Part shown: positions 1,673 to 10,845 of the stretch, piece after piece
How positions within the stretch are numbered: the first letter of the stretch is position 1
Layout: every line of letters begins with the position of its first letter
NCBI GenBank assembly: GCA_945861845.1
Contig: CAMAWS010000002.1
Coordinates: 1 to 21,418 of the forward strand
Direction of reading: 5' to 3'
Length of the DNA: 21,418 bases
From: Candidatus Sulfopaludibacter sp. SbA3
Lineage (GTDB): Bacteria > Acidobacteriota > Terriglobia > 20CM-2-55-15
Position numbers and translations under genes: made by a program
Notes under the pieces: model-generated
Database searches by the model: none
What the model was told of the DNA's origin: nothing
Seen by the model: only the letters and a program-made list of their open reading frames with translations

Positions 1673-1894
1673 AATGCCCACCTACTATGAGGCTTCTGCT
1701 TTCAATCCAGGATGAGATGAACGCTGCTACGACGGAGGAGAGCGCTTGCCGCTTCACGGAGTATACGCAGTATAGACGCTTTCGACCCAGGATGCTCTGA
1801 TCATATTCGGGCTGGACAGTCCCCTCCCCTGACTTTGCCCAACAAATCGTATTTCCTTCTTGACGACGCGCGAAGCGCATCCGAATAGCTGTAG

Positions 1895-1913
1895 GCGCGG
1901 TCTATGACCGCGC
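1895..1913. repeat. Perfect 8-bp-arm hairpin, probable interspersed palindrome
   Basis: GCGCGGTC at 1895-1902 and its exact reverse complement GACCGCGC at 1906-1913 are separated by TAT. The flanking bases (CTGTAG before it) resemble a palindromic intergenic repeat I have seen in GC-rich soil bacteria, where a CTACAG would close the other arm. Here that outer arm is missing and the next bases belong to the sigma-54 remnant. No second copy occurs in this window. Confidence 0.6.
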
Positions 1914-1915
1914 AC

Positions 1916-1975
1916 ATTGCCGTCAATTGCGGGGCGATCCCGGAGAATCTTGTGGAGAGCGAACTGTTCGGTTAG
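1916..1975 (+). pseudogene. Remnant of sigma-54 activator AAA+ domain
   Basis: In frame from 1916 the codons read IAVNCGAIPENLVESELFG and then TAG at 1973. This matches the segment of NtrC-type sigma-54 interaction domains between Walker A and the GAFTGA loop, where VNCAAIPENLLESELFGHE is the common form. No Walker A precedes it and no GAFTGA follows in any frame, so this is an isolated 19-codon fragment. It begins 3 nt after the hairpin at 1895-1913, suggesting that a rearrangement joined them. Confidence 0.65.
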
Positions 1976-2254
1976 GCATCGCCTATGTCTTTCTTGGAAA
2001 ATAATGACTATGGGATTTGTCCTTGATGACATTACCCGAAACATCCTAGGCCGGGATTTTTCAGGCTGGTAAACATCGGTTTCGACGAACACCATCAAAT
2101 CTTCCACGTCAGCCGCCGCACTTGATCCACGAAATCAGAACCCTAACAACGGCAGAGGATCTGCGGGCTTTATCGTGTGCTCGCGAGTTTGGGTCCGGCC
2201 TGCAGCGGACTCCCGGACCTCCTATGACCGAGGGTGCCGATAAAACCTAAGTGA

Positions 2255-4573
2255 ATGATTGTCTATTCCTCTTCGAAGTCCCAGTTTCAAGCCGATGTCA
2301 TGACGAATGACATCGGAAACATCATTCTCAAGGCGTACACCGCGCGAACCGGGCGCACTACTGGCAAGTCGGAGATCGATTCCTGGATACACTCGCTGCG
2401 ATACATGGATAGCGTGTTAAACGATGGCGATATCCCGGGCGACGCGGGTGTCGCCATCGAGTATCACATTCCACAAACATCAAAGCGGATCGATTTCATC
2501 CTGACCGGAAAGGACGAGCAGCAGCAGGATACGGCGGTTCTTGTTGAACTCAAGCAATGGCAACATGCGGGGTTGACGGACCAGGACGCCATTGTCACAA
2601 CTCGATTCAAACATGGCGAGAAACAGACGCCACATCCTTCGTACCAAGCGTGGTCGTACAAGCGGCTTCTGGAAGACTTCAATCAGACGGTCCAGGAAGA
2701 ACATATTCAGCTCTATCCATGCGCCTATCTTCACAACTACGAACCTGACGACTGTATTACCAACCCGTTCTACCAGGACTACATTGCGAAGGCCCCGTTG
2801 TTTCTGAAGAACGATGCGAAGAAGCTGCAGAACTTCATTAAGAGGCACGTCAAGCACGGTGACAATGACCAGATCATGTACCGGATTGATCATGGCAAGA
2901 TCAAGCCGTCCAAGAACCTCGCCGATTATCTAGCCTCGATGCTTCTTGGTAATGAAGAGTTCACGATGATCGACGACCAGAAGGTGGTTTACGAATCGGC
3001 TTTGACTGAGGCCGCGCGAGCTTCACTTGGCGGAAAGCGTGTACTGATCGTTGAAGGTGGCCCCGGGACTGGAAAGTCGCTGGTAGCGATCAACCTGCTC
3101 GTCGCAATGACAAGCCGGGAGCTGGTGGTCCAGTACGTTACCCGAAATTCGGCGCCGCGAGTTGTTTACGAAGCCAAGCTGACCAACTCGTTCAAGAAAT
3201 CCCACATCTCGAACATGTTTAGTGGCTCTGGGTCATTCCATTCGATCGAGGCCAACAGTTACGACTGCCTCATCGTCGATGAAGCGCACCGCCTCAATGA
3301 AAAGTCCGGGATGTATGCAAATCTCGGCGAAAACCAAATCCACGAAATTATTCGTGCGAGCCGCTGCAGTGTGTTCTTCATTGACGAAGATCAAAAGGTG
3401 ACGCTCAAGGATATCGGAGATAAGCGTGAGCTTCGCCGGTGGGCAAAAATGGAGGGCGCCAAAATCACGGAACTCACGCTTGAATCGCAATTTCGTTGCA
3501 ACGGGTCCGATGGGTACCTTTCCTGGCTGGACAATACCCTTCAGTTAAGACCAACCGCAAATGAGACGCTGGATGACGTTGGATATGACTTCCAAATCGT
3601 CGGTACACCAGGCGAACTTCATGCCTGGATACGCGAAAAGAATGAGGAAAAGAACAAGGCGCGCATGGTTGCGGGATACTGCTGGGACTGGGTCAGTAAG
3701 AAACAGCCGCAGCTAAGAGACATCGCAATCGGCGATTACAAAGCAACATGGAATTTGGATACGGATGGTCAAGCCTGGATCATCAAGCCCGACTCCGTCA
3801 GCGAAGTTGGCTGCATTCATACCTGTCAGGGTCTCGAATTGGATTACGTCGGGGTGATCGTAGGCGCGGACATGGTGGCCCGCAATGGCCGAATCATGAC
3901 GCGACCTGAAGAACGATCCAGCATGGATCGCTCGATCCACGGCTGGAAAGCCCTGATGAAGAAGAACCCGAAGGAAACTCAGGAACGCATCGACTCCATC
4001 ATCAAGAACACGTATCGCACGCTGATGACCCGAGGACAAAAAGGGTGCTACGTATGCTTCGTCGATGAAGAAACCAGAAGCTATTTTGAGAGTCGCCTGG
4101 GGCTGCATGCGGCGGAACTCGTTCCGTATTCCAACGCGCTCCCGTTGTTCGACTTGAGGGTCGCCGCCGACGCTTCCTACAAAGATCTTGAAGGCTATTT
4201 CTCAAATTCGGAAAACTTCAAATGGCATCGTGTCAGCGGCGGTCCGTTTCCCAGGGACAGATTCCTGGCTCTCGTGGAAGGTGATTCCATGGAGCCGGAC
4301 ATTGCTGACGGCCAGCTTTGCATTTTCCGGAAAGATCCCGGCGGCAGCCGGAATGGCAAGATCGTCCTGTGCCGAATCGGTGGATTTGCCGGCGACGAGC
4401 CCATCGCCGTAGTCAAACGATATCGAAGCGCCCGGACGGCATCAGCGGACAGTATCGGCGAAGCTAAGGCTATCGTTCTCTCTTCATTGAACGAAAATCA
4501 TGACGACATTGTATTAACCAGCGGCGACCATCTGTCGATCATCGGAATCTTCGAACGAGCAGTTAAGGAATAA
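2255..4573 (+). CDS. DUF2075 nuclease-helicase fused to an S24/LexA-type peptidase, 772 aa
   Basis: Three modules are visible. Residues ~1-200 hold a PD-(D/E)XK-like nuclease (Asp80 in RIDFIL, then Glu98-Leu-Lys100). Residues ~255-615 are a DUF2075/Schlafen-group-3-like SF1 helicase with Walker A EGGPGTGKS (267-275), DEAH (342-345), ESQFRC near 410, HTCQGLELDYVGVIVGAD (522-539) and TRGQKGCYVCF (592-602). Residues ~665-770 are an S24 peptidase domain, with Ser678 in EGDSMEP and Lys721 in AVVKRY forming the LexA/UmuD-type dyad. A canonical Ala-Gly cleavage site is not evident; the linker has VAADAS near 636-641. The start at 2255 matches DUF2075 proteins (MIVYSSSKSQF), though no strong ribosome site is seen. 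The defence-island context suggests a nucleic-acid-targeting immune or repair factor whose activity may be switched by proteolysis; that role is inferred. Confidence 0.85.
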   Translation: MIVYSSSKSQFQADVMTNDIGNIILKAYTARTGRTTGKSEIDSWIHSLRYMDSVLNDGDIPGDAGVAIEYHIPQTSKRIDFILTGKDEQQQDTAVLVELKQWQHAGLTDQDAIVTTRFKHGEKQTPHPSYQAWSYKRLLEDFNQTVQEEHIQLYPCAYLHNYEPDDCITNPFYQDYIAKAPLFLKNDAKKLQNFIKRHVKHGDNDQIMYRIDHGKIKPSKNLADYLASMLLGNEEFTMIDDQKVVYESALTEAARASLGGKRVLIVEGGPGTGKSLVAINLLVAMTSRELVVQYVTRNSAPRVVYEAKLTNSFKKSHISNMFSGSGSFHSIEANSYDCLIVDEAHRLNEKSGMYANLGENQIHEIIRASRCSVFFIDEDQKVTLKDIGDKRELRRWAKMEGAKITELTLESQFRCNGSDGYLSWLDNTLQLRPTANETLDDVGYDFQIVGTPGELHAWIREKNEEKNKARMVAGYCWDWVSKKQPQLRDIAIGDYKATWNLDTDGQAWIIKPDSVSEVGCIHTCQGLELDYVGVIVGADMVARNGRIMTRPEERSSMDRSIHGWKALMKKNPKETQERIDSIIKNTYRTLMTRGQKGCYVCFVDEETRSYFESRLGLHAAELVPYSNALPLFDLRVAADASYKDLEGYFSNSENFKWHRVSGGPFPRDRFLALVEGDSMEPDIADGQLCIFRKDPGGSRNGKIVLCRIGGFAGDEPIAVVKRYRSARTASADSIGEAKAIVLSSLNENHDDIVLTSGDHLSIIGIFERAVKE

Positions 4574-4637
4574 TGACCGAGTTCCAGGCGTCTCTTCCCT
4601 GCTCGAATGTCTTTGATTGTCCGCGTATCCGTAGCTC

Positions 4638-5000
4638 TCACCTCAGTCCCCTAGTTTTCTCCAGTTTCACCCAGATCACAGCACCGCTCGGATGCTCGTA
4701 AGGCTTCGGCCTTTTCAATTGAGTGGAGCGGCCGAGTACCCAAGCGTACGTCGTCTTATATCGAAGCCCAGGGAGATCGATCGGCCGCGAGCCGATCTTG
4801 CTCGCGTTCGCCTTCAGTTCTTTCAGAGAAAGTGGACCTACTACATCGACGAGATCGCATGTGCCCAAGATGAGCCCACTTCCTGCTCGGATCAGAGCAA
4901 TGCGTCCGCGAATTTTAGTCCGTGACCCACGGATTTCCCATGTCTTCTTGCCCGCGAGAATCTTCTCGATCCATGGTGATCGTATGATCAGTCCACGCAT
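4638..5000 (-). CDS. ASCH-domain protein, 120 aa
   Basis: The N-terminus MRGLIIRSPWIEKILAGKKT followed by WEIRGSRTKIRGRIALIRAG is the hallmark of an ASCH/PUA-like domain (a beta barrel that binds RNA or modified nucleosides). A second conserved stretch (TYAWVLGRSTQLKRPKPYEHPSGAVIW, seen here as YAWVLG and the KPYEHPSGAVIW block) supports it. Small stand-alone ASCH proteins include nucleoside amidohydrolases and RNA-binding factors; which applies is not clear. It is transcribed opposite to its neighbours and is convergent with the helicase-peptidase gene, 64 bp away. The ATG at 5000 is the natural start and a possible GAGG-type site sits about 5 nt upstream. It is likely an accessory gene of the defence island, although ASCH genes also occur elsewhere. 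Confidence 0.8.
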   Translation of the reverse strand: MRGLIIRSPWIEKILAGKKTWEIRGSRTKIRGRIALIRAGSGLILGTCDLVDVVGPLSLKELKANASKIGSRPIDLPGLRYKTTYAWVLGRSTQLKRPKPYEHPSGAVIWVKLEKTRGLR

Positions 5001-5012
5001 GGTTCACCTCAG

Positions 5013-5132
5013 TCAGTCATTCACGAACTGCGCCAGCCGATGTGCATCCAGCGCCTCACGTGCAAAGGCAAATACTCTAGCACTCACTACGGATTGATCG
5101 CTGTAGATCGCTACGTCTCGCTCGGTTCCATC
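5013..5132 (-). pseudogene. Possible 3' tail of a degraded gene upstream of the ASCH gene
   Basis: On the minus strand a frame ending in TGA at 5013-5015 reads RDVAIYSDQSVVSARVFAF and then AREALDAHRLAQFVND. Its composition looks like a real alpha-helical C-terminus. It has no ATG; the only start is a GTG at 5087 giving 24 residues, and an in-frame TGA closes it at 5133-5135. The stop lies 12 nt upstream of the ASCH start, the spacing expected for an operon partner. I do not recognise the family. It may be the remains of a gene once co-transcribed with the ASCH gene. Confidence 0.35.
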
Positions 5133-5248
5133 TCAGGAATTCGAAGCTTTCTATGTGCCGCGGCACTTTTGACGTTAACGATGCCGACCTTTGTTGTTCG
5201 CAACCTCGAGTCAATTATCTTTTTGGGCCAAAAGTAAACCGTGAGAAC

Positions 5249-6094
5249 ATGCCAGCCTTAACAAACGCAGCTAACTGCAGAAACATGAATATGTTGCGAG
5301 AACCGATAGTGTCCCCCAAACAAACAGATCAGAAGAAGCAGTTTCGGTCTTCCCGGCCGTACTCGTCCAAAATCATCAAAGCCGGGGCTCTGATCGCGGA
5401 CACGAAGACTTTGCTTTCCCACTGGGATGTCAAAACCTCGGTGGCGGACAACATCCATCGGGTACAGCGAGAGAATGTCTTCGGGAAATCCTCCCGTTCC
5501 CGTGTTAACGCCATCCTGGCGATCTTTCGGCAGCGATACCTCACGGAAGAATCAGTGACACGGGCACTTGCCACCCTCGTCCGGAGAAGGTTTCCGACCG
5601 CAGCTCTGGCACGGTTGCTATATTTTCATGCTGCACGTGCGGATCAGTTGCTGCACGATGCCGTCACCGAGATTCTCGTGCCGATGCAGGCACGGGGATT
5701 GGTGGACATCGATGCCCAGAATTTCCAGCGATCCCTGGCAAAGTGGGTGGAGGAAGGAAAGACGACTGGGCATTGGTCGGAACCAACCATCACCCGGATT
5801 TCGCAAGGACTGCTCTCGGCTCTTCGAGATTTTGGCGTCCTCGAAGGAGCTGTTCACAAGAAGATCTCTTCCGCCTTGCGAAGCCGGGATCGCTTTGGTC
5901 GTCGCCATCTACTCGGCGCTCAAGAGGCAGTCCGTCCAGGCGGGCATGGTAATCCTTGGCGACTTGAGTATTCAGGGGAACATCAAGCCACTGCGTTCCT
6001 TGTCAGAGCCGCTCCAGGTCGTCATGGACAACGGCGCACGCAAGGCACTGATCCCGCTGGAGAACAAACGAAACTTTCTCGAAGTGTCCGGTGA
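5249..6094 (+). pseudogene. brxA: brxA (DUF1819), 3'-truncated and fused out of frame to brxL
   Basis: Residues ~45-209 counted from the ATG at 5249 match the BREX protein BrxA (DUF1819/PF08849): SSKIIKAGALIADTKTLL, then SRVNAILAIFRQRYLTEES, LARLLYFHAARADQLL, RSLAKWVEEGKTTGHWSE and LRDFGVLEGAVHKKISSA. After about 5875 the family pattern stops where BrxA should go on for roughly 50 more residues. The remaining ~72 codons, to a stop at 6092-6094, are an out-of-frame reading of brxL and are arginine/glycine-rich noise. BrxA is a small DNA-binding protein needed for BREX restriction; without its C-terminal part it is probably inactive. Start choice is uncertain: ATGs at 5249, 5285 and 5291 are possible, and the frame is open from 5153. 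No strong ribosome site is seen. Confidence 0.85.
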
Positions 6095-6170
6095 CATCGT
6101 CGAACGAGTTGATCCAGTTTTCTTCTCCGACCCGATGACGGCGGCGATGAAGGCGTTGGGGATGACGTGA
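5877..6170 (+). pseudogene. brxL: brxL, C-terminal remnant (Lon-like domain)
   Basis: In the frame one base different from brxA, codons from about 5883 read AGIALVVAIYSALKRQ, then LGDLSIQGNIKPLRSL, MDNGARKALIPLENKRNFLE and DPVFFSDPMTAAMKALGMT, ending at TGA 6168-6170. This is the C-terminal Lon-protease-like end of BrxL, the AAA+ DNA-binding factor of type 1 BREX that normally has over 650 residues. Everything upstream (N-terminal domain and AAA+ core) is missing. The exact break lies between about 5873 and 5883; the two residues before AGIAL cannot be assigned to either parent with certainty. There is no start codon or ribosome site of its own. The following DUF429 frame overlaps its stop. 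Confidence 0.85.
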
Positions 6171-6178
6171 GATTTAAA

Positions 6179-6898
6179 ATGACAACTCTGTACGGTGTAG
6201 ATGGGTGTAAGGGAGGATGGCTTGTATCGCGGAGTGTGCCCGATGGAGATGCGCTCGGTATACCCAGTTTCTCGGTCACAACGGATCTCCGTCATATCTT
6301 CGAGAAAGCCATTCAATGCCAGGCTATTGCGATAATCGATGTCCCGATTGGTCTGTGCGATGCGGGAGCACGGAACTGCGACCTCGCAGCGCGTAAAATC
6401 CTCCGCCGTCCCCGTAGTAGTAGCGTATTTCCCCCGCCTTTTAGAAGAACTCTCCAGGCGACGACCTATCGAAAAGCTTGTGAATTGAACTGCCGTGATG
6501 GTGGTCCGAAGGTCACGCAGCAAACCTTCAACATCATGAAGGGTATCCGTGATGTCGATGGCCTGATTACACCCAAGTTGCAGAACCGGGTTCGTGAGGC
6601 CCATCCGGAAGTGACATTCGCCCAGTTGGCCGGAAGCCCGATGAAGTTCCGAAAGAGGACGGTTCCAGGAATTGTCGAGCGTTTGGCGGTCTTGGCGGCA
6701 AATGGAGTCAACCTCACACGAGAAACGATTCAATCTGAGCGATTGAGGCTCGGCCGGTCCTTGGTCAAACCTGACGACATCGTCGATGCTGCGGCATGCC
6801 TGGTTACGGCTTGGCGAGTTTACCGGAAAGCATACGTTGTAATCCCAAACAGTAAACAGGTCGATGCGGAACAATTACGTATGGAGATCGTTTCGTAG
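6179..6898 (+). CDS. DUF429 predicted RNase H-like nuclease, 239 aa
   Basis: DUF429 (PF04250) proteins are predicted RNase H-fold nucleases. Acidic residues sit in the expected places: Asp8 in YGVDGCKGGW, Asp54 in AIIDVPIGL, Glu140 in REAHPEV, and Asp200/Asp203 in PDDIVDAAACLVTAW. The length (~240) is normal for the family. I chose the ATG at 6179; an in-frame GTG at 6167 overlaps the brxL stop as GTGA and would add four residues, suggesting translational coupling to the last BREX gene. The reading frame is intact although the operon in front of it has collapsed, so it may be under selection of its own or decay may be recent. Its role is unknown; a defence-associated nuclease is a reasonable inference from position. 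Confidence 0.85.
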   Translation: MTTLYGVDGCKGGWLVSRSVPDGDALGIPSFSVTTDLRHIFEKAIQCQAIAIIDVPIGLCDAGARNCDLAARKILRRPRSSSVFPPPFRRTLQATTYRKACELNCRDGGPKVTQQTFNIMKGIRDVDGLITPKLQNRVREAHPEVTFAQLAGSPMKFRKRTVPGIVERLAVLAANGVNLTRETIQSERLRLGRSLVKPDDIVDAAACLVTAWRVYRKAYVVIPNSKQVDAEQLRMEIVS

Positions 6899-6953
6899 CC
6901 CCAGATTGAGACGACGGGAAGGCCCGCAAGGTCCAGTAAGTGAGGGTTAATTT

Positions 6954-7688
6954 ATGAAAGCAGGTTATCGCCAGTGGCTGGAGTTACAGAAGTATCAGGC
7001 GAACACCGTCAACGCGCAGATGTATAGGGCTGGCCGGGTTGAGGAACATCACGGCAACCTCGACGAGCATTACGCGACAGACCGCATGGCAAGCCTCGTC
7101 GAAACGCTGTCCTATTCAAAAGACGACCAGCGGCGTAACCGGCCAAACCCGACGAAGATCCCGATCGAAGGCGACATCTTCAAGAACCTCGTGTCGTATC
7201 GCGATGCGGTAAAGCGTTATCGCAAGTTCCGAGATGAGACTGGCGAAGACGGATTTGACGCTCCTGCGCCCGGCGCGGATGAATCTGCGACGGCGGCTGG
7301 CGAAGAGGTCGGACGGAGGATCGGACTGGAGCGAGATCTGCAAGCCGCACTCCGGGTGGAGATCCAAAAACTTGAACCAGGCCTCACTATCACGGATGAC
7401 GGCGCCGAACGTTCCGTCGAGTCTGGATTCATCGATATAACCGCCCGGGATTCTTCGGGAATGACTGTCGTCATCGAACTGAAGGCGGGAGTTGCAGGAC
7501 AACGCGCTGTCGCACAAATCCTAAGCTATATGGGAGATGTCGCCAGCGAAGAGGAAACTGGAAACGTTCGTGGAATACTAGTCGCGTCCGACTTCGATGC
7601 AAAAGCGAAGTCGGCGGCGAAAATGGTGCCGAGTCTGATTCTTCGTAAGTACAGCGTCCAGTTCAGGTTCGCAGACGGGCAGGCCTAA
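6954..7688 (+). CDS. NucS-like (DUF91) PD-(D/E)XK endonuclease-domain protein, 244 aa
   Basis: The C-terminal half (~125-240) matches the nuclease domain of archaeal/actinobacterial NucS: LERDLQAALR, Asp161 in SGFIDITARD, Glu175-Leu-Lys177 in VVIELKAG, and Gln188 in VAQILSYMGDV, followed by VRGILVASDF. These are the expected catalytic residues of a PD-(D/E)XK site. The N-terminal ~95 residues (MKAGYRQWLELQKYQ, then YRDAVKRYRKFRDE) are helical, unlike the beta-rich N-domain of true NucS, and probably bind DNA or a partner. An acidic/alanine linker (101-120) separates the halves. So this is a NucS-domain relative rather than the NucS mismatch repair enzyme. It follows the DUF429 gene by 55 nt on the same strand. 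Confidence 0.8.
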   Translation: MKAGYRQWLELQKYQANTVNAQMYRAGRVEEHHGNLDEHYATDRMASLVETLSYSKDDQRRNRPNPTKIPIEGDIFKNLVSYRDAVKRYRKFRDETGEDGFDAPAPGADESATAAGEEVGRRIGLERDLQAALRVEIQKLEPGLTITDDGAERSVESGFIDITARDSSGMTVVIELKAGVAGQRAVAQILSYMGDVASEEETGNVRGILVASDFDAKAKSAAKMVPSLILRKYSVQFRFADGQA

Positions 7689-7706
7689 CCACCGAACAAA
7701 GAATGG

Positions 7707-8264
7707 ATGAGGAATCCTGACAAAAACGCCATCCATCACGCATCGATATCGTCAGCGCGCGGCCGGCAGTACGGAACGAATTCCAAAGAATTCAGCGACT
7801 TCCTTTCGCCGCTCCGGAGATATCTCCATGGCCAGGTCGGCAGGCCATGGGACAAGGTCTACAGCGAGATTCGCAAAGCGGTTCCAGGCGGATTGCAAGG
7901 GGATCATCTATGGATGCACATCAAGTGGGAAGTGGAGATCCACTGCTTCGAGCGCGACGGCCGCGTGTTTGCCAGGCAGCGGTACTTTTATGTAGATATC
8001 GAGGTTTCGGGCTTATACGTTCATCCGCGCACAGGGCTTCTGTGTTACAGGCTGCTACCTTCAAGACCACGCCTGAAGCCAACCGCGCCAGTAGACCGGA
8101 TCGAGATCGCCGAAAACGAGGAATACCGAAAGATCAATGGCATCTGGTACTACCAGAAGTTCGTTCGCCTCGATGTTTCAGGGCCGCCAGTTCTGGAATT
8201 AGTCCGAAAGAAGCAACTGAACCGGCGCGAACTGCGCGAATTCCGGCAGGCGTACCCTGAGTAG
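7707..8264 (+). CDS. Conserved hypothetical protein, 185 aa
   Basis: The most striking block is GRPWDKVYSEIRKAVPGG followed by LQGDHLWMHIKWEVEIHC, then LYVHPRTGLLCYRLLP and NEEYRKINGIWYYQKF. I recall similar blocks in uncharacterised proteins from Planctomycetes and other environmental bacteria, but know no function. The protein is basic and soluble, with no signal peptide or membrane segment; the basic C-terminus (RKKQLNRRELREFRQAY) could contact nucleic acid. It begins 18 nt after the NucS-like gene on the same strand and is likely co-transcribed. The ATG at 7707 is the only good start; no strong ribosome site precedes it. The palindromic repeat at 8307 follows its stop and may serve as the 3' end of the transcript. 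Confidence 0.7.
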   Translation: MRNPDKNAIHHASISSARGRQYGTNSKEFSDFLSPLRRYLHGQVGRPWDKVYSEIRKAVPGGLQGDHLWMHIKWEVEIHCFERDGRVFARQRYFYVDIEVSGLYVHPRTGLLCYRLLPSRPRLKPTAPVDRIEIAENEEYRKINGIWYYQKFVRLDVSGPPVLELVRKKQLNRRELREFRQAYPE

Positions 8265-8306
8265 CGATTCGTTGCCTCGACCGAAGTGCCGGATTCTGGA
8301 ACCACG

Positions 8307-8392
8307 CTGTGGGCGCGGGGCTTCAGCCCCGTGCAGAGTTCCAGAAAATTCCTGTTTGATCCTGGCACGGGGCTCAAGCCCCGCGCCCACAG
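8307..8392. repeat. Palindromic intergenic repeat, copy 1
   Basis: Two 28-nt arms (8307-8334 and 8365-8392) are reverse complements with one mismatch, around a 30-nt loop. Each arm itself contains a small palindrome (GGGGCTTCAGCCCC in the left arm). The same element occurs at 10727-10816 in the same orientation. It lies 43 nt past a stop codon. It resembles the REP/MITE-like elements scattered between genes in some bacterial genomes and could also form a transcription-terminating or mRNA-stabilising structure. Confidence 0.85.
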
Positions 8393-8445
8393 GTCGCGTG
8401 ACAACGCTTAGGTTGCACCCATGTATCGCTCCCGCGTATAGTCTG

Positions 8446-8463
8446 AATACAGAAATCTGTATT
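8446..8463. promoter_or_regulatory. Perfect palindrome upstream of vapB, probable VapBC operator
   Basis: AATACAGA (8446-8453) and TCTGTATT (8456-8463) are exact reverse complements separated by AA, ending 13 nt before the vapB ATG. VapB antitoxins bind palindromes at their own promoters, so this is a natural autoregulatory operator. The assignment is by position and symmetry only. Confidence 0.6.
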
Positions 8464-8476
8464 GGAAATCGAGCTT

Positions 8477-8719
8477 ATGAAAACCACGCTGAACATCGAC
8501 GATGAACTTCTCATCAGAGCCAAGGCTGTATCCGCTCGCGAAAAAACAAGCCTGACTGCGCTCATTGAAGAAGGACTCCGCTTGCGTCTTCGCCGGCCAA
8601 GCCGGAAATCCAGATCCGGGAAGCATGTGTTGCCGGTTTATCGCGGCAAAGGCGGTCTGGTGAAGGGCATTGATCCTCGCTCAAACCGTTCGATGCTGGA
8701 TGCGGCTGATGACGCCTGA
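8477..8719 (+). CDS. vapB: VapB-type antitoxin, 80 aa
   Basis: The N-terminus MKTTLNIDDELLIRAKAVSA followed by LTALIEEGLRLRLRR is a ribbon-helix-helix domain of the kind found in VapB antitoxins of PIN-domain toxins. The C-terminal part (HVLPVYRGKGGLVKGIDP, then RSMLDAADD) is the flexible toxin-neutralising tail typical of this family. I start at the ATG at 8477; an in-frame ATG at 8462 would add five residues and lies inside the operator palindrome. The stop overlaps the start of the toxin gene by 11 nt, indicating translational coupling. Autorepression through the palindrome at 8446-8463 is likely. Confidence 0.85.
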   Translation: MKTTLNIDDELLIRAKAVSAREKTSLTALIEEGLRLRLRRPSRKSRSGKHVLPVYRGKGGLVKGIDPRSNRSMLDAADDA

Positions 8720-9140
8720 TCTCAACGTTTTGATCGCCGCCTCAAGAATCGATCATGTCCATCATAAGAAAGCAATGGGTTGGCTGAGTGAGGCCCTTAC
8801 AGCCAGCGCGAGGGGAGGTGGCCTGGAAATTCTTCCGATGGTCGCGGTGGGATTCCTGCGATTGGTCACCCATCCGAAGGTGTTTGTGAATCCGACGCCG
8901 ATTGACGATGCCATCTCCTTCCTGGACAAGCTACTCGACGCTCCCGGCGTGGAAATGCCGGAACTCGCTCGCGAGTGGACTGCGCTTCGTCAGCTTTGCC
9001 GTGACAGAAAACTCAGCGCGAACGATGTTTCAGACGCCTGGATCGCAGCGGCCGTGAGAACAAGAGGAAATCATCTCGTCACATTCGATCGAGGATTCAC
9101 GCGGCTCCTGTCGAAGGCCGAAGTCACGATCCTGGACTAG
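8709..9140 (+). CDS. vapC: VapC-type PIN-domain ribonuclease toxin, 143 aa
   Basis: The PIN-domain acidic residues are present: Asp4 in TPDLNVLIAA, Asp106 and Asp109 in NDVSDAWIAA, and Asp127 in LVTFDRGF. The family's second acidic position, usually a Glu in the helix near residue 40-45, is less obvious; Glu40 (GLEILPM) is the only candidate. VapC toxins cleave structured RNAs such as tRNA or rRNA with Mg2+. Length is normal for the family. I chose the ATG at 8709 because it gives the canonical MTPDLNVL start and overlaps vapB; an in-frame ATG at 8670 would run inside vapB. The frame is intact, so unlike hicBA this pair may be functional. Confidence 0.88.
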   Translation: MTPDLNVLIAASRIDHVHHKKAMGWLSEALTASARGGGLEILPMVAVGFLRLVTHPKVFVNPTPIDDAISFLDKLLDAPGVEMPELAREWTALRQLCRDRKLSANDVSDAWIAAAVRTRGNHLVTFDRGFTRLLSKAEVTILD

Positions 9141-9402
9141 CGAAATAGAGCAGGAAGAATAATCCGTCATGGCTTTCTGCGGCTCGGCACTGTACACTCT
9201 TTCCAGTTTGCGCGTTCGATGTCCGACTTTCCTTGCAGATGCCGCAGCCGTCCGGTCTCAACTAACGGCGAGCTTCTTCACCGTTCGGTTTTACCGCTCA
9301 AACCTCTGAACTTCCGTCACAACGACGAGTCAGCCAAAACCATTTTTAGTCTCGAGCGCGGTTTCCAGGGGACGCTCCGGGATACATTCAGGAGCACTTC
9401 GC

Positions 9403-10710
9403 ATGACTTTCGACGAACTTGGGCTCGCGCCCATTCTCTGTAAAACCGTTGCCGGACTGGGCTACAGCTCTCCGACACCCATTCAGGTCCAGGCCATTCC
9501 CATGGCCCTTGAAGGCCACGACCTTCTGGCCGGCGCACAAACCGGCACGGGCAAAACCGCCGCATTCGCGCTTCCGATCATCGAGCGGCTGATGATTCAC
9601 GGCGCACCCCGCAAAACCGTATCGCGCAGGCCGCGATCTCTCGTCCTGGTACCCACGCGTGAGCTGGCCAACCAGGTTCACGAGTCGTTCCGATCCCTCG
9701 CCACTGGAACCGGACTTCTCAGCGCCACCGTATTCGGCGGCGTCGGCATGGAGCCGCAAGTCCGGGCCCTGAACCGCGGTCTCGACCTGGTCGTGGCCAC
9801 TCCCGGCCGCCTCATCGACCACATGGAGCGCGGAACCGTAAACCTTTCCGGCGTGGAGATCCTGACGCTCGACGAAGCCGATCGCATGCTCGACATGGGA
9901 TTTCTTCCCTCCATCCGCCGCATCCTGGCAGCCGCGCAGACCAACCGGCAGACGCTTCTGTTCTCTGCAACCCTGCTGCCGCAGATCAAGGTACTTGCCG
10001 CACAGTTCATGAAGAATCCGAAAGAGGTCCAGGTCTCCGCGGTGAACAGCATTGCGGCCACCATTGCCCATCGCGTCCATCCGGTGTCTGCCGATCGCAA
10101 GCGCGACCTGCTGGTTCACCTGCTCGGACGAAATACGCACCAGGCCCTGATCTTCTGCCGCACCAAGCACGGTTCCGATAAATTGTGCCGCCACCTCTCC
10201 GACGGCGGATTCCGCGCCGAAGCCATTCATGGCAACAAGAGCCAGGGCGCTCGAACGCGGTCGCTGGCAGACTTCAAGGCCGGACGGACCCGTCTTCTCG
10301 TCGCCACGGACCTTGCGGCCCGCGGCCTCGACATCCAGCAGTTACCGATGGTGATCAACTTCGACCTCCCGATGGTCCCGCAAGACTACATTCACCGGAT
10401 CGGCCGCACGGGCCGCGCGGGCGTCGAAGGTCATGCGGTGTCGTTGGTGTCGCGCGAAGAGCGGGGGTTGCTCGGGGATATCCAGCGGCTTCTTGCCGGC
10501 CAAATTGAAATTTCCGCGGTTGCGGGATTCGAGCCGTCGAACGCGCCCAGTAGAGCCAACGCCACGCCGCGTCCTCCGGCCACGCCTTTCAGGGCTGCCA
10601 CTCCAGAAAGGCAGGCACGCGTGGGCTATGCGTTCCGTCCGGGCGGCGCACGGTCCGAGCGCAGCACAAGAGACAGCGGAAACCGGTCACGGCATAAAAC
10701 CGGACGGTAA
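9403..10710 (+). CDS. rhlE: DEAD-box ATP-dependent RNA helicase, RhlE type, 435 aa
   Basis: All core motifs are present in order: Q motif with Gln28 (PTPIQVQAIP), motif I AQTGTGKT (45-52), PTRELA (84-89), TPGR (133-136), DEAD (157-160), SAT (188-190), ARGLD (306-310) and HRIGRTGR (331-338). The FxxLGL start and LDEADRMLDMGF motif fit the RhlE branch. Such helicases remodel RNA in ribosome assembly, mRNA decay and cold adaptation. The C-terminal ~65 residues are low-complexity and rich in Arg, Pro and Ala, a usual RNA-binding tail. The ATG at 9403 has AGGAG at 9390-9394. A 262-nt leader separates it from vapC, which leaves room for its own promoter and cold-responsive regulation, though I see no specific element. 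The palindromic repeat follows its stop by 16 nt. Confidence 0.93.
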   Translation: MTFDELGLAPILCKTVAGLGYSSPTPIQVQAIPMALEGHDLLAGAQTGTGKTAAFALPIIERLMIHGAPRKTVSRRPRSLVLVPTRELANQVHESFRSLATGTGLLSATVFGGVGMEPQVRALNRGLDLVVATPGRLIDHMERGTVNLSGVEILTLDEADRMLDMGFLPSIRRILAAAQTNRQTLLFSATLLPQIKVLAAQFMKNPKEVQVSAVNSIAATIAHRVHPVSADRKRDLLVHLLGRNTHQALIFCRTKHGSDKLCRHLSDGGFRAEAIHGNKSQGARTRSLADFKAGRTRLLVATDLAARGLDIQQLPMVINFDLPMVPQDYIHRIGRTGRAGVEGHAVSLVSREERGLLGDIQRLLAGQIEISAVAGFEPSNAPSRANATPRPPATPFRAATPERQARVGYAFRPGGARSERSTRDSGNRSRHKTGR

Positions 10711-10726
10711 TAGACTTCGTTACTAC

Positions 10727-10816
10727 CTGTGGGCGCGGGGCTTCAGCCCTGTGCAAAGCTCAAAAGGAAAAACTTTTGTTGGAGTCTGGCACGGGGCTGA
10801 AGCCCCGCGCCCACAG
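10727..10816. repeat. Palindromic intergenic repeat, copy 2
   Basis: The 28-nt arms (10727-10754 and 10789-10816) are reverse complements with one mismatch and match copy 1 (8307-8392) almost base for base. The loop is 34 nt and similar to the copy 1 loop in the same orientation. It begins 16 nt after the helicase stop codon. It is probably the same REP/MITE-like family and a likely 3'-end structure for the helicase mRNA. Confidence 0.85.
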
Positions 10817-10845
10817 GTAGAACGAAAAGCGCAGATTATGCTCCA

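Follow-up and report, generated by a model that had tools for sequence, protein, structure and literature searches.

A brxA-brxL joint in Candidatus Sulfopaludibacter sp. SbA3 as the probable scar of a single internal deletion in a type 1 BREX locus

The contig CAMAWS010000002.1 of Candidatus Sulfopaludibacter sp. SbA3 (assembly GCA_945861845.1, genome G000) carries a locus in which the first part of brxA is joined directly to the last part of brxL, the two outermost genes of type 1 bacteriophage exclusion (BREX). The window, which is the whole stretch of DNA analysed here, is the entire contig (C2; 21,418 bases, no N), taken from a fragmented metagenome bin of 496 contigs that is 81% complete. 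The best-supported reading of these sequences, held with high confidence, is a single deletion inside a type 1 BREX locus, because each break point is exact and collinear with the sequence of intact relatives. The term intact means here that the relatives have the core genes in order, and does not imply that each gene is whole. The original prediction of a BrxA-like region followed by the C-terminus of BrxL was borne out by matches to PF08849, TIGR02653 and the PADLOC models.

The 5′ part of brxA occupies 5285..5875 on the plus strand and comprises 197 codons from the ATG at 5285, compared with around 270 in homologues, which corresponds to the first ~73% of the gene. The BrxA domain is present: PF08849 (DUF1819/BrxA domain) matches with an E-value of 1.8e-25 over profile positions 2–171 of 184 and residues 69–242 of the frame opening at 5153, and the PADLOC BrxA model matches at 3.9e-32. 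This frame contains ATG codons at 5249, 5285 and 5291, and the start of the homologues (MNMLREP...) makes 5285 or 5291 the more likely one, so that 5873–5875 is codon 197 or 195, respectively. The closest homologues, among the best 120 of 2,224, reach at most 84% identity across about three quarters of the query. When aligned with 13 homologues, the window protein tracks them to 'KKIS-A' and diverges after it; it lacks the ~70 C-terminal residues of its BrxA subfamily, and no BrxA likeness is seen past the junction in this alignment. The frame continues instead as an out-of-frame reading of brxL DNA (5876..6094, plus strand), which adds 72 residues before the stop that closes the open reading frame 5153–6094. 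A BrxA profile compared with the PDB sequences gave no significant match (best E-value 0.21).

The 3′ end of brxL lies at 5877..6170 on the plus strand and consists of the last 97 codons and the stop TGA (6168–6170), one base out of frame with brxA, as had been predicted. It matches NCBIfam TIGR02653 at positions 571–674 of 675 (4.1e-33) and PADLOC BrxL at positions 583–679 of 680 (1.5e-25), and its product is 84–94% identical to the tails of eight relatives. The BrxL of one of them (locus L054) matches the solved BrxL structures. As described in PMC10164562, BrxL is built of an N-terminal domain (~residues 1–146), an AAA+ ATPase domain (170–469) and a Lon/RadA-like C-terminal domain (~498–679). 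Neither of the first two is represented in the window, where the TIGR02653 match begins only at position 571, and the coverage of Lon_C positions 111–188 of 205 amounts to about half of the third. A tblastn alignment that stretched the BrxL match back to 5763 was rejected, since the DNA upstream of 5877 matches brxA and not brxL.

The joint between both fragments was placed by lining up the window DNA with 8 BrxL-side rows and 11 BrxA-side rows, which represent 10 distinct loci because L058 and L078 belong to a single record. Local DNA alignments to brxA stop at 5865–5877, and those to brxL begin at 5873–5877. On the brxA side, position 5876 is T in the window and in 11 of 11 rows, while at 5877 the T of the window is shared by 4 rows and the other 7 have A. 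On the brxL side, the rows read TGC (6 of 8) or TGT (2 of 8) from 5877 onwards, and the base preceding the break is C, G or A, never T, in all eight. The junction, located within 5873..5877, is thereby fixed between 5876 and 5877, inside the interval of 5873–5883 given by the original prediction. Neither an insert nor a repeat is seen in the lined-up rows. The microhomology at the break points, suggested earlier as a check, comes to 0–1 base in the rows of the relatives, among which the parental allele itself is not included. Such a joint is what a deletion of the end-joining type would be expected to leave. The exact 33-base junction word had 0 matches in viral contigs.

The layout from which this joint may be derived is retained in relatives. 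A scan of genome contigs yielded 12 BrxA loci, and 9 of them were traced to their genomes for a search of the BrxL tail (L061, L067 and L068 were left out); the tail was found in 7 genomes at 84–94% identity and in 2 it was not. Together with G096, a genome of the same class, this gives eight relatives with the tail: six carry it on the same contig as BrxA, separated from it by the core genes, one (L084) also on that contig but after an internal deletion, and one (G751) on a separate contig. In L057, L059, L060 and L067, the contig runs out before brxL. The six relatives with brxA and brxL of the same lineages on one contig are G096, G749, G756, G752, G753 and G754, and the interval that matches the joint measures 13,686 bases in G096 (L054), 13,822 in G749 (L078), 13,687 in G756 (L079), 15,536 in G752 (L083), 14,900 in G753 (L085) and 20,445 in G754 (L081/L082). 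This interval contains brxB, brxC, pglX, pglZ and the 5′ part of brxL, and the predicted order brxA-brxB-brxC-pglX-pglZ-brxL is seen in all six. Four of them (L054, L078, L079 and L083) add a gene of 273 residues between brxC and pglX (L054:12063–12884), which is HEPN-like (PF18735, 3.6e-8) and matches no PADLOC family. According to the protein-versus-DNA comparison, pglX is fragmented in L078 and L081. The earlier estimate of ~12 kb missing between the two genes was right as to the loss and slightly low as to its size, which is 13.7–13.8 kb by three relatives and 13.7–20.4 kb across all six.

In G096, BrxA is 64% and the BrxL tail 92% identical to those of the window, and the order on the single contig is brxA-brxB-brxC-273-residue gene-pglX-pglZ-brxL, with brxA and brxB named by Pfam and brxC, pglX, pglZ and brxL by PADLOC. 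The window resembles this type 1 BREX with a BrxA of ~270 residues, as well as that of a Nitrosospira bin (L058/L078; BrxL tail also 92% identical), in both outer genes, their order and their direction. It differs from them by lacking four of the six core genes and most of brxL, so that the locus holds no more of the operon than the brxA part and the brxL tail. The outer genes of one lineage, the BREX order and the full core between them in six relatives define it as a remnant of type 1 BREX rather than a system. The BrxL of G002, from the same family, was rejected as a parent, its tail being just 35% identical; the homologue search started from it led into another subfamily and was set aside.

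Both remnants retain the appearance of genes under constraint, which does not in itself prove present constraint. No in-frame stop is found in either. The BrxA fragment was compared with 118 of the 119 other listed homologues (one was left out for coverage), and its private changes number 0 at 34 strictly invariant columns, 1 at 66 columns conserved at 98%, 2 at 84 at 95% and 6 at 111 at 90%; as many or more changes occur in 49, 49 and 18 of the 118 rows at the last three levels, respectively. The codon-position ratio of the fragment is 0.32, within the 0.30–0.38 of relatives. Because both remnants resemble constrained genes in this way, the loss appears recent relative to the split from these relatives.

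Several points weigh against the reading of a single recent deletion. The joint is known from assembly only, and this from the fragmented and incomplete bin mentioned above. The 313-residue fusion protein is listed also on a contig of 6,197 bases, which was possibly built from the same reads as the window contig. A relative in which an intact operon lies between DUF429 and SLFN/DUF2075 flanks like those of the window, recommended by the original prediction as a check, was not found among the loci compared, and the parental allele is thus unseen. Moreover, the 6 changes at the 90% columns of BrxA exceed the median of intact homologues, which is 3, and the codon-position ratio of the BrxL tail, 0.17, is at the top of the range of relatives (0.11–0.17). 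Both values perhaps indicate slight relaxation, and therefore the age of the deletion is only bounded.

The original prediction had left the choice between a real deletion and an assembly collapse, in which an intact operon would be present in some or all cells and the assembler would have joined its ends. The fragmentation of the bin speaks for the latter, as do further BREX-like pieces at contig ends of the same bin (C447 and C59). The joint, however, offers no repeat for an assembler to collapse on, and the same fusion stands on the second contig. The search of the bin for the missing DNA was negative: 14.6 kb of BREX DNA of a relative, compared with the genome, returned just two pieces, both in the window (5336–5876 and 5877–6155), and the BrxC of G096 had no match; such an empty result alone shows nothing, but BrxC aligns at 78–91% in nine loci of the lineage. 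With this one DNA query and one BrxC query, no other BREX genes of the same lineage were found in the bin. The pieces at the contig ends were rejected as the lost middle: the tail of the C59 BrxL, of another subfamily, is 27% identical to that of the window, the C447 BrxL start is 90% identical to that of C59, and both proteins are 38–39% identical to the G096 BrxL. An artefact of assembly or population is accordingly regarded as improbable, and a real deletion is favoured. These pieces themselves come from another BREX-like system in the bin: C447 (L012) has a brxL start and a PglZ-domain gene, and C59 has a whole brxL (L013:78–2144), whose identity to the C447 start extends over 168 residues; these brxL genes are probably two copies.

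If the deletion is real, the locus would formerly have held a complete type 1 BREX operon, and one illegitimate, end-joining type event would have joined brxA codon ~197 to brxL codon ~579 (of ~675), removing everything between. Because the methylase and restriction genes would have been lost together, such a one-step loss should be survivable. The remnant would yield no more than a truncated BrxA ending in 72 foreign residues, and the BrxL tail would be untranslated or internally started. In Acinetobacter, full phage restriction is reported to need all seven BREX genes, and methylation brxA, brxB, brxC, pglX and pglZ (PMC9122589); in E. coli HS, brxA is described as dispensable (PMC9122589; PMC9240713). 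With brxB, brxC, pglX, pglZ and the ATPase part of brxL missing, neither restriction nor methylation is expected here, and the BREX system, deprived also of the N-terminal part of BrxL, is presumably dead.

An alternative is that the truncated BrxA has been kept as a working stand-alone DNA-binding protein, e.g., a regulator of the neighbouring defence genes. The BrxA of E. fergusonii is reported to bind DNA and to have two helix-turn-helix motifs (PMC9240713), and by analogy the window protein, which retains most of the PF08849 domain and the strictly invariant residues, might still do so. The conservation is equally explained by a recent loss, the end of the protein consists of 72 out-of-frame residues in place of the last ~70 of the subfamily, and among the best 120 of 2,224 homologues the truncated form was not seen in any other genome. 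A retained function of this kind is therefore considered very unlikely, and decay after a single deletion is preferred.

Judged by its surroundings, the scar sits in the interior of a variable defence hotspot (1804..7747), since the sister genome G001 of the same genus shares the flanks but holds different cargo. In a blastn comparison of the window with G001 (L102), the outer DNA is colinear at 80–89% identity over 34–622, 1194–1804, 7747–8378, 8373–8724 and 9156–10711. Besides the BREX scar, the cargo of the window comprises a helicase of SLFN group 3 that has an S24 peptidase domain, an ASCH protein, a DUF429 gene and a NucS-like protein. The G001 cargo consists of a protein matching ZacB/PDC-M27B, whose PLD-like match falls short of the Pfam cut-off, a helicase that matches PDC-M27C, and a pair made up of an Xre-like member (under the cut-off) and a RES member; a tRNA-His lies 2.7 kb from the hotspot edge. 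The DUF429 gene (6179..6898, plus strand; PF04250, 2.6e-50) starts 8 bases past the brxL stop, with GTG 6167 as an alternative start in the same frame, and its relatives at E ≤ 1e-20 are found in 9 of 399 genomes of the class, own genome included. Nine flank proteins of the window were compared with the flanks of intact BREX loci (~2–5 kb past BREX), and none was found there. The DUF429 and NucS-like genes are hence judged to be neighbours and not BREX genes. The earlier suggestion that the intact downstream genes hint at a recent event or at another role was consequently abandoned; as these genes are not part of BREX and were not found beside intact loci, their intactness is uninformative on the age of the deletion.

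Other features of the window were also recorded. The SLFN-group-3 (DUF2075) helicase at 2255–4573, whose S24 (LexA-like) peptidase domain is C-terminal, has PADLOC matches to PDC-S41, AbiO and Nhi, and its product is possibly a self-cleaving or SOS-linked defence helicase. Two genes lie at 632–1178 on the minus strand, one HicA-like and passing the Pfam cut-off, the other HicB-like and falling below it; they are within the segment 622–1194 that is missing from G001, where the DNA runs contiguously. A palindromic repeat of ~90–100 bases with GC-rich arms is present at 8307–8394 and 10723–10820, with many more copies in G000 and G001, and we take it to be REPIN-like.

The locus is a case of ordinary decay of a known system, and this kind of scar is not unusual. 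An example from the same BREX lineage is L084 (= L065; contig JAFATG010000305.1 of a metagenome-assembled genome, Acidobacteriaceae bin), in which positions 1852–6545 hold brxA, brxB, brxC residues 1–483 and then brxL from residue 89, with an interval of ~3.8 kb. In both loci the outer genes are retained and the middle is gone; unlike the window, L084 breaks at brxC 483 and brxL 89 and has a further frame break near brxL 557–561, and from these features it is an independent internal collapse. In L026, from the same phylum, only brxL residues 458–672 remain, in two pieces with a stop, within the 3.3 kb examined. In PMC9240713, a truncated brxC and transposase insertions are recorded for M. magneticum; such published disrupted loci are single disrupted genes or insertions, with no brxA-brxL joint. 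Searched by title or the start of the abstract, the literature yielded no report of a brxA-brxL joint or of brxL-tail fossils, which does not prove their absence.

Tails of brxL also recur in E. coli, where a BREX core query had matches in 706 of 5,426 complete genomes. Among 60 rows sampled evenly down this ranking, 29 had as their best place only the last 89–330 bases of brxL (one record has a second place). The last 330 bases used as a query matched 685 genomes, 396 over at least 80% of the query and 289 over a shorter piece; all 25 short-piece rows among the 60 shown cover bases 151–330 (24) or 242–330 (1). The first 330 bases of brxA and brxL bases 57–1056 matched 28 genomes each; these queries detect close alleles only, and their contrast with the tail is not a clean count, as a tail-only genome could hold a distant BREX elsewhere. 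The tails are probably shared by descent in many genomes, which implies fewer events than genomes. The 3′ remnants L107:6001–6330, L108:6001–6180 and L110:5992–6246 are annotated as either an S16 family serine protease or a hypothetical protein, and elsewhere such remnants appear as a peptidase. Three chromosomal tails adjoin an IS911 remnant and IS30, IS1, and a phosphorothioated-DNA-binding restriction gene, respectively, and a tail on a 41-kb plasmid has neighbours resembling those of the first. The reduction of brxL to a 3′ piece is common to the window, L026 and the E. coli scars (NC_008253.1, NZ_CP032986.1 and NZ_CP047594.1). The three E. coli tails differ in abutting an insertion sequence or another restriction gene, with no brxA annotated in the stretch seen.

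One tentative explanation, for which we would claim rather little, is that the 3′ end of brxL is a boundary where BREX hotspots repeatedly break or recombine, the upstream cargo being lost or exchanged and the last tens of codons being left as a fossil; the window would show the same boundary through an internal deletion. In the E. coli genomes NZ_CP147529.1 (H51, H109) and NZ_CP077545.1 (H38, H120), the likeness to the query, another BREX allele, is 97% across the final 330 bases of brxL, compared with 82% for the whole match, as expected if recombination anchors at this end.

The brxA-brxL joint would thus represent a clean case in which a whole defence operon was lost in one step and the exact joint was preserved. 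Together with the brxL tails of E. coli, it may serve as a marker of past BREX carriage. It is also a warning that surveys in which one gene suffices for a BREX call would include dead loci.
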